Origin: Actinomycetota bacterium
GTDB lineage: Bacteria > Actinomycetota > Rubrobacteria > Rubrobacterales > Rubrobacteraceae
Reading direction: 5' to 3'
DNA: 49,844 nt
NCBI GenBank assembly: GCA_004563715.1
Contig: SIRX01000110.1
Coordinates: 1 to 49,844, forward strand
Shown: positions 13,287 to 14,737 of the stretch, piece by piece
How the letters are laid out: every line of letters begins with the position of its first letter
How positions within the stretch are numbered: the first letter of the stretch is position 1
The notes under the pieces: generated by a model
Databases searched by the model: none
Told to the model about the DNA's origin: nothing
What the model saw: only the letters and a program-made list of their open reading frames with translations
Program-made: the position numbers and the translations under genes

Positions 13287-13733
13287 CTACTGCTGCAACC
13301 GGCTCCGGACCAGCGCGGAGAGCTCCCGGCCCTCCGCCCGGCCTTCAGCGAGCGCCATAGCGCGGCCCATCACAGCGCCCATGTCCTTCATGCTGCTGGC
13401 GCCGGTTTCCTCTACCGCCCGACCCACGATCCGCTCCAGCTCTTCTCCGGACATGGGCGCCGGCAGGTAACCCCGTACGATCTCGGCTTCCGCGGCTTCC
13501 CGCTCGGCTTGTTCTCGACGCCCGGCTTTGTTGAAGGCGTCCGCAGACTCCTCGCGCTGCTTGAGTTGCCGGCGGAGAACGGCCCGCTGCTCCTCTTCAC
13601 CCAGAGGGTGGCCCGCCTCTATCTCGGAGTTCTTGAGCGCGGAAGAGAGCATCCTGAGCGCCGCCACCCGCGTCCGATCCCGGCTCTTCATGGCTTCTTT
13701 TGTATCACGTTGTATTTGCTCTGTTAAGCTCAT
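13287..13733 (-). CDS. yqeY: YqeY/GatB-C-terminal-like protein
   Basis: A 148-aa protein of the YqeY family, related to the tail domain of GatB, which binds tRNA during amidotransfer. The biological role of the stand-alone form is not established. It shows the helical N-terminal half (MSLTEQIQRDTKEAMKSRD) and the C-terminal motif EIVRGYLPAPMSGEELERIV, then the KDMGAVMGRAMAL helix. The ATG at 13733 overlaps the stop of the preceding HIT remnant, so its translation may depend on passage of ribosomes through that remnant. A weak AGGAA lies upstream. Confidence 0.92.
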   Translation of the reverse strand: MSLTEQIQRDTKEAMKSRDRTRVAALRMLSSALKNSEIEAGHPLGEEEQRAVLRRQLKQREESADAFNKAGRREQAEREAAEAEIVRGYLPAPMSGEELERIVGRAVEETGASSMKDMGAVMGRAMALAEGRAEGRELSALVRSRLQQ

Positions 13734-13996
13734 GGCATTCCTATTCTTGGTCCGCTCATTGCATGCAGGCGCAAGCGGGAAACCTCCTGCCCGGCATCGG
13801 GACGGTTGTTGATCCTGACGGCGCACCCGCTCCCGGGCACCCCGGGCTTCTCGGCCACCTCTAATGAGGCTCCGAAGATACGCTTCACCACCCCGTCGGG
13901 CAACTCCTCGGCCTGAGCCAGAGACCCGACGCGCTGCCTTTCGCCTGCGACCTCTTTGTCTGCTATTTCGCAGAACAAGCGATTATGCTTACCCAC
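13730..13996 (-). pseudogene. decayed HIT-family (histidine triad) gene
   Basis: An open 88-codon reading frame between rsmE and yqeY, whose two ends match HIT hydrolases. The start MGKHNRLFCEIADKEVAGER corresponds to the family FCxIxxGE opening. The end INNRPDAGQEVSRLRLHAMSG corresponds to the INxxxxxGQxVxHxHxHxxxG block. The middle of about 30-40 residues, normally holding VLAFxDINPxAPxHxLVIPK, is missing. The first and the nucleophilic middle histidine of HxHxH are both arginine (CGC codons), and only the third remains. The frame stays open, overlaps the rsmE end and overlaps the yqeY ATG, so it may survive as a translated linker. It is very unlikely to be an active hydrolase. Confidence 0.7.
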
Positions 13997-14729
13997 GGCC
14001 TCCGCTCCCTTCCGAAGCCTCAGCGCAGCGCTCCAGGACCGCCCGGGCCCGCGCGACGGCCACGATGCCAGCGGTCTCGCTGCGGAGCCGGTACGGGCCG
14101 AGTTGAGCCAGCGGCATACCGGCCTCCCGGGCTACCGCCACCTCCGCCTCGCTCCATCCACCTTCCGGACCCACGAAGAGGCTCACCGCGGGACCATCGA
14201 TCACCTTCTCCAGCGCCGGCAAACCGTTCCCGTTGTGCAGCATAACGCCGCCGGATCCAGAGCCTCTCAAAGTCTCTCCGAGCGGCACGGGGTCCCGAAC
14301 CTCCGGTATCCGCAGCTGCAACGATTGTCGAGCCGCCGCAGCCGCCAGCCGCCGCCACCGCTCGACCTTGCCGCCCTCTCCTACGGGACGGGCCACGCTC
14401 CGGTCGGTAACGAGCGGCACGATCACGTCCGCACCAAGCTCTGTAGCTTTTTCGACTACGAGGTCCATGTTCTTCCCCTTGGGAACGGCCTGGTACAGAT
14501 ACACCCCTGTAGAGTCTCTACCCGCCTCGCTCAGCTTCTCCAGGATAGCGGCTTCCCGGCCGTTGCGCAGCCGGGCGAGGAACAAGCTGCGGGCTACGTC
14601 TACCACCTCGATGTGGTCCCCGCTCCGGCCCCGGAGTACCTTGCTGATGTGCCGGGCTTCACGTTCCGGCAGGGTCAGCGGTTCGCCGCTCGACAGGGTA
14701 TCGCTAACGAAGATGCGGGTGATAGCCGT
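13989..14729 (-). CDS. rsmE: 16S rRNA m3U1498 methyltransferase, apparently ACG-initiated
   Basis: An SPOUT-class methyltransferase that N3-methylates U1498 of 16S rRNA using SAM. The C-terminal knot is clear in LFVGPEGGWSEAEV and LGPYRLRSETAGIVA. The N-terminal PUA-like domain (TRIFVSDTLSSGEPL then REARHISKVLRGRSGD) is fully readable, but the frame has no ATG, GTG or TTG before it. ACG at 14729 lies 8 nt after AGAGG (14738-14742) and gives 246 aa, the normal length. The first canonical start, GTG 14606, would give 205 aa and delete about 40 residues of the RNA-binding domain. It follows dnaJ by 17 bp and overlaps the HIT remnant. Confidence 0.93.
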   Translation of the reverse strand, partial: TAITRIFVSDTLSSGEPLTLPEREARHISKVLRGRSGDHIEVVDVARSLFLARLRNGREAAILEKLSEAGRDSTGVYLYQAVPKGKNMDLVVEKATELGADVIVPLVTDRSVARPVGEGGKVERWRRLAAAAARQSLQLRIPEVRDPVPLGETLRGSGSGGVMLHNGNGLPALEKVIDGPAVSLFVGPEGGWSEAEVAVAREAGMPLAQLGPYRLRSETAGIVAVARARAVLERCAEASEGSGGRG

Positions 14730-14737
14730 GCGAGAAA

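Follow-up and report, generated by a model that had tools for sequence, protein, structure and literature searches.

A shortened HIT hydrolase gene overlapping yqeY in Rubrobacteraceae, probably a redundant copy in decay

Overlapping gene pairs linked by termination-reinitiation coupling include co-directed genes that share a 4-nt ATGA (PMC10666635, PMC6728339). In E. coli and Haloferax, coupling is tight at 4-nt overlaps; a distance of about 20 nt nearly abolishes it, and as little as the final 15 nt of an upstream gene can be enough (PMC10666635). In the window analyzed here (i.e., the whole 49,844-nt stretch of contig SIRX01000110.1 from a Rubrobacteraceae assembly, GCA_004563715.1), an 88-codon frame is joined to yqeY in the same arrangement. 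Unlike the described pairs, the upstream gene has decayed, and coupling is a prediction from the nucleotide sequence. Bacterial HinT and HIT hydrolases (PF01230; solved structures 5uvm, 6d6j, 3n1s, and 4egu) align weakly with the C-terminal half of this frame (E = 0.044 to 1); unlike these proteins, it lacks the central strands, the catalytic histidine, and the presumed zinc ligands and falls under the Pfam cutoff. Its closest relatives are intact HIT genes of about 114 codons (here termed HIT-A) in 20 genomes of the same family, with which it is colinear.

An 88-codon HIT-A remnant between rsmE and yqeY

The locus comprises the following features.

13730..13996, minus strand: HIT-A remnant, 88 codons with a GTG start (open frame, homology, and alignment)
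13989..14735, minus strand: rsmE (16S rRNA m3U1498 methyltransferase), the upstream neighbor; start codon tentative
13287..13733, minus strand: yqeY, encoding an intact YqeY-like protein (Pfam YqeY, E = 3.2e-46), the downstream partner of the ATGA overlap
13739..13742, minus strand: AGGA, Shine-Dalgarno-like, 5 nt before the yqeY ATG and within the last codons of the remnant (direct reading)
13939..13940, minus strand: junction left by the in-frame loss of 26 codons, between residues 19 and 20 of the remnant (aligned with the 20 intact HIT-A genes)
13979..13981, minus strand: former Cys6 codon (first Cys of CxFC), now CGC (Arg)
13931..13933, minus strand: former His48 codon (alignment numbering), now CGC (Arg)
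13763..13777, minus strand: HIT motif, RLRLH in place of HLHLH; Arg has replaced His100 and the catalytic His102, and His104 is kept

The TGA of the remnant overlaps the yqeY ATG by 4 nt (ATGA, 13733-13730), as an earlier note on this DNA had stated, and its GTG overlaps the rsmE stop codon by 8 nt. Searches around the remnant for promoters, terminators, and Rfam elements gave no match. The flanking rsmE, yqeY, phoH, and dnaJ genes are intact and show normal similarity to those of relatives.

The earlier note had matched both ends of the frame to HIT hydrolases and had pointed to the rsmE-yqeY interval of relatives as the place to look for an intact copy. Both points were borne out: intact HIT-A lies in that interval in 20 family genomes (the G017 contig ends before rsmE), and remnant residues 19/20 to 88 share 45 to 61% identity with orthologues from this locus (E values down to 3e-19). 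The nucleotide profile of the intact genes matched the remnant at an E value of 2.9e-32, and the local alignment score against HIT-A was 181, versus a shuffled mean of 34.6. The Pfam HIT match remained below threshold (E = 0.035; 15.2 bits versus a cutoff of 21.5) and covered only profile positions 37 to 95 of 98, so that the remnant contains no complete HIT domain. The orthologues (e.g., in G017, G031, and G006) occupy the same place on the same strand, and most share an ATGA or GTGA overlap with yqeY; unlike the remnant, they have about 114 to 116 codons, carry HLHLHV (or HLHAHV) with CxFC and His48 intact, and are under purifying selection. Colinear homology in a conserved neighborhood, together with a loss of constraint relative to the intact orthologues, marks the frame as a remnant of HIT-A. 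Its basal position in the HIT-A tree probably reflects long-branch attraction. Because HIT adjoins yqeY in other families of the phylum as well, the HIT-yqeY gene order is probably ancestral.

Lost residues and selection on the remnant

Aligned with the 20 intact orthologues, the remnant shows a single gap, a clean in-frame loss of 26 codons; the missing block reads VVHDEEDVLAFQDINGRAPVHVLVIP in the relative G017. The earlier note had thus rightly reported a missing central block, although its estimate of 30 to 40 residues was too large. Among the 35 invariant columns of intact HIT-A, 9 are deleted in the remnant and 9 of the 26 retained ones are changed (C6R, H48R, V69A, Y84C, G91R, H100R, H102R, V105A, and G107S); the intact orthologues each carry zero to two such changes in a leave-one-out comparison. 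In total, 28 of the 88 residues occur in none of the 20 orthologues.

His102, the middle and catalytic (nucleophile) histidine of HxHxH, is Arg in the remnant, and the HIT hydrolase motif is therefore absent. The note had correctly read this motif as RLRLH with two His-to-Arg changes; two further Arg codons replace the first Cys of CxFC and His48. Residues C6, C9, H48, and H100 correspond, we presume, to the zinc ligands of CxxC-class HIT proteins. On that assignment there is no Cys-Cys-His-His site, since Cys6, His48, and His100 are Arg and only Cys9 is left, i.e., three of the four ligands are by inference lost. Judged from its sequence, the predicted product cannot act as a HIT hydrolase, because the catalytic histidine and these presumed ligands are gone. 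As a separate observation, seven of the nine invariant-codon changes need only an AT-to-GC transition (e.g., CAC to CGC), a direction opposite to the usual bacterial mutation bias.

An assembly or sequencing artifact of an intact gene could be entertained for a draft genome of 176 contigs that is the only representative, but nine scattered invariant-codon changes, mostly single transitions, together with an exact in-frame deletion amid intact flanking genes, make it most improbable.

Amino acid change is accelerated on the remnant branch, with a dN of 0.27 versus 0.063 on the G017 branch. With dS (1.3 to 1.8) borrowed from the control genes yqeY and phoH (rsmE was unusable, with a dS of 27), dN/dS is about 0.15 to 0.21, roughly three times the background of 0.056. 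A branch-only omega of 0.07 from a codon model of the retained codons was set aside because dS was saturated (3.8). An omega of 1 over the whole branch was rejected (lnL, -2794.3 versus -2779.2), and this branch includes a long time before decay. These values, which refer to a single remnant branch because the 88-codon form is known from one genome, fit a long period of purifying selection and then a short, roughly neutral late phase, an order that is unproven. The proportion of retained invariant columns that changed, 35% (confidence interval, 17 to 56%), is about that produced by 50 neutral substitutions in simulation, and the GC content by codon position is drifting toward uniform.

The gene has been inactivated by deletion and residue loss, and its 88-codon frame is not disrupted. 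This open frame is only mildly notable and is not decisive: it needs no special selection, because about 40% of simulated frames contained no stop codon after 50 neutral changes. Once indels are added at an assumed 0.03 or 0.1 per substitution, the chance of an open frame drops to 13% or 1.4%.

The open frame with its good start, the 17 of 26 retained invariant positions that are unchanged, and the rejection of an omega of 1 for the whole branch would also suit a new short protein selected for a nonhydrolase role, an option raised in the earlier note. A conserved 88-residue form was sought among relatives (60 genomes in one search and 39 family genomes in another) and was not found outside the window genome (0 of 38 other family genomes). 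The near-neutral rate of change at invariant positions, the deleted core strands, the loss of the presumed zinc site, and the drift in codon-position GC likewise tell against this proposal, which we regard as quite unlikely.

Translation of the remnant and coupling to yqeY

The ribosome-binding site of the remnant is strong (-9.5 kcal/mol), while that of yqeY in the window is weak (duplex energy of the 20 nt preceding the start, -4.2 kcal/mol). The yqeY site averages -5.3 in genomes with intact HIT-A and about -7.5 (-5.6 to -9.8) in 12 genomes lacking it (Mann-Whitney P = 5e-5, with kinship and spacing ignored and two HIT-A-less genomes with uncertain start codons left out). The weakness of the site in the window, as in HIT-A holders, is consistent with ribosomes from the upstream frame re-initiating on yqeY, and with the stop-start overlap it makes translational coupling of the remnant into yqeY plausible.

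The earlier note had further suggested that selection may keep the frame only to carry ribosomes to yqeY. On this view, ribosomes would pass to yqeY by termination-reinitiation at ATGA, and stops and frameshifts would be purged even though the product itself is useless. The anatomy fits this suggestion: the overlap is common to most intact orthologues and is of the kind known to be tightly coupled, with coupling nearly lost at about 20 nt (PMC10666635), the remnant has kept its strong ribosome site, and the yqeY site here is weaker than in all 12 scored genomes without HIT-A. Moreover, at an assumed 0.1 indels per substitution, a frame that has taken 50 neutral changes would have a chance of only about 0.014 of still being open. 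The same chance is, however, about 0.4 for stop codons alone and 0.13 at 0.03 indels per substitution, again an assumed rate; yqeY owns an AGGA 5 nt before its ATG, and coupling can need no more than the final 15 nt of an upstream gene (PMC10666635). Relatives have also lost HIT-A entirely, and their yqeY either carries a site of its own or overlaps rsmE (G008 and G019). The anatomical part of the suggestion thus stands, but chance suffices to explain the open frame, and selection for ribosome passage, which would be compatible with decay, is a tentative proposal that we consider somewhat doubtful.

HIT-B and the pattern of HIT-A loss

The window genome has one other HIT gene, as the earlier note had thought worth checking: an intact gene, HIT-B, on contig C145. 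HIT-A and HIT-B form separate clades, and the neighbors of HIT-B are constant across the family. Because the same neighbors recur in several genera, HIT-B is probably ancestral as well. HIT-B occurs in 14 of the 15 genomes that lack intact HIT-A versus 2 of 20 with it (Fisher P = 7e-7, kinship ignored) and, at a completeness of at least 90%, in 13 of 14 versus 1 of 9 (Fisher P = 1.6e-4, kinship ignored); these counts overstate independence, given the shared ancestry of the genomes and the incompleteness of some.

The nearest relative by YqeY, G010 (taken as the same genome as L061/G060 on the basis of identical match coordinates), retains HIT-B and shows no trace of HIT-A between rsmE and yqeY. 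In G008 and G019, HIT-A is gone and rsmE and yqeY overlap directly by 4 nt. A tree of neighboring genes placed the window genome, with weak support, near G017, in which HIT-A is intact, and G005, which has none. In G005 (98% complete; rsmE-yqeY gap L129), neither HIT-A nor HIT-B seems to be present, the sole HIT match being of a divergent type on C367; HIT-B is therefore not strictly required for HIT-A loss.

Other decayed HIT-A copies were sought in the rsmE-yqeY gaps of G005, G010, G003, G012, and G015, and none was convincing. The G012 gap had a seemingly raised pairwise score, but a nucleotide profile search gave nothing convincing, and a start motif, GKH, common to G005 and the remnant was too short to count. 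At its beginning, the G012 gap (L142; 322 nt) nearly repeats the yqeY start (TGAGCGTATCGGATCG), as though through a duplication of that start. Elsewhere in the family, HIT-like matches at G033:C352:2337-2522 and G032:C298:1347-1610 contain two and one internal TAG codons, respectively, and are possible further HIT pseudogenes. Genus g3 has a second HIT-A-like paralogue away from yqeY (L023 in G028, L051 in G002, and G063:C282, the last known as a search row only).

Since lineages without HIT-A, the window genome included, nearly all keep the syntenic HIT-B, we consider it very likely that the remnant is a recently inactivated, redundant HIT-A copy, dispensable beside HIT-B and decaying in place. 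The ancestral HIT-A would have belonged to a dnaJ-rsmE-HIT-yqeY-phoH cluster and become dispensable while HIT-B was kept elsewhere in the genome. With constraint gone, it would have accumulated point changes at catalytic and presumed metal-binding residues and the 26-codon deletion, and whatever it still encodes would be a fragment that has no activity and probably does not fold. Initiation probably continues at its strong start, with ribosomes reading 88 codons and terminating at ATGA; some may re-initiate there on yqeY, which is probably also the case in relatives whose HIT-A is intact. We infer both this translation and the role of redundancy in the decay. Against decay count the open frame and the good start and ribosome site, which a purely neutral relic need not have, the rejection of an omega of 1, the restriction of the remnant to a single genome, and the absence of both genes from G005.

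The locus appears to be an ordinary case of redundant gene loss caught part-way, of modest interest as a snapshot. If selection for ribosome passage did keep the frame open, some open frames now annotated as short proteins would instead resemble leaders, with no useful product of their own. These observations suggest gene loss in progress inside a tight cluster, in which a redundant paralogue decays while an overlap that possibly feeds its neighbor persists.
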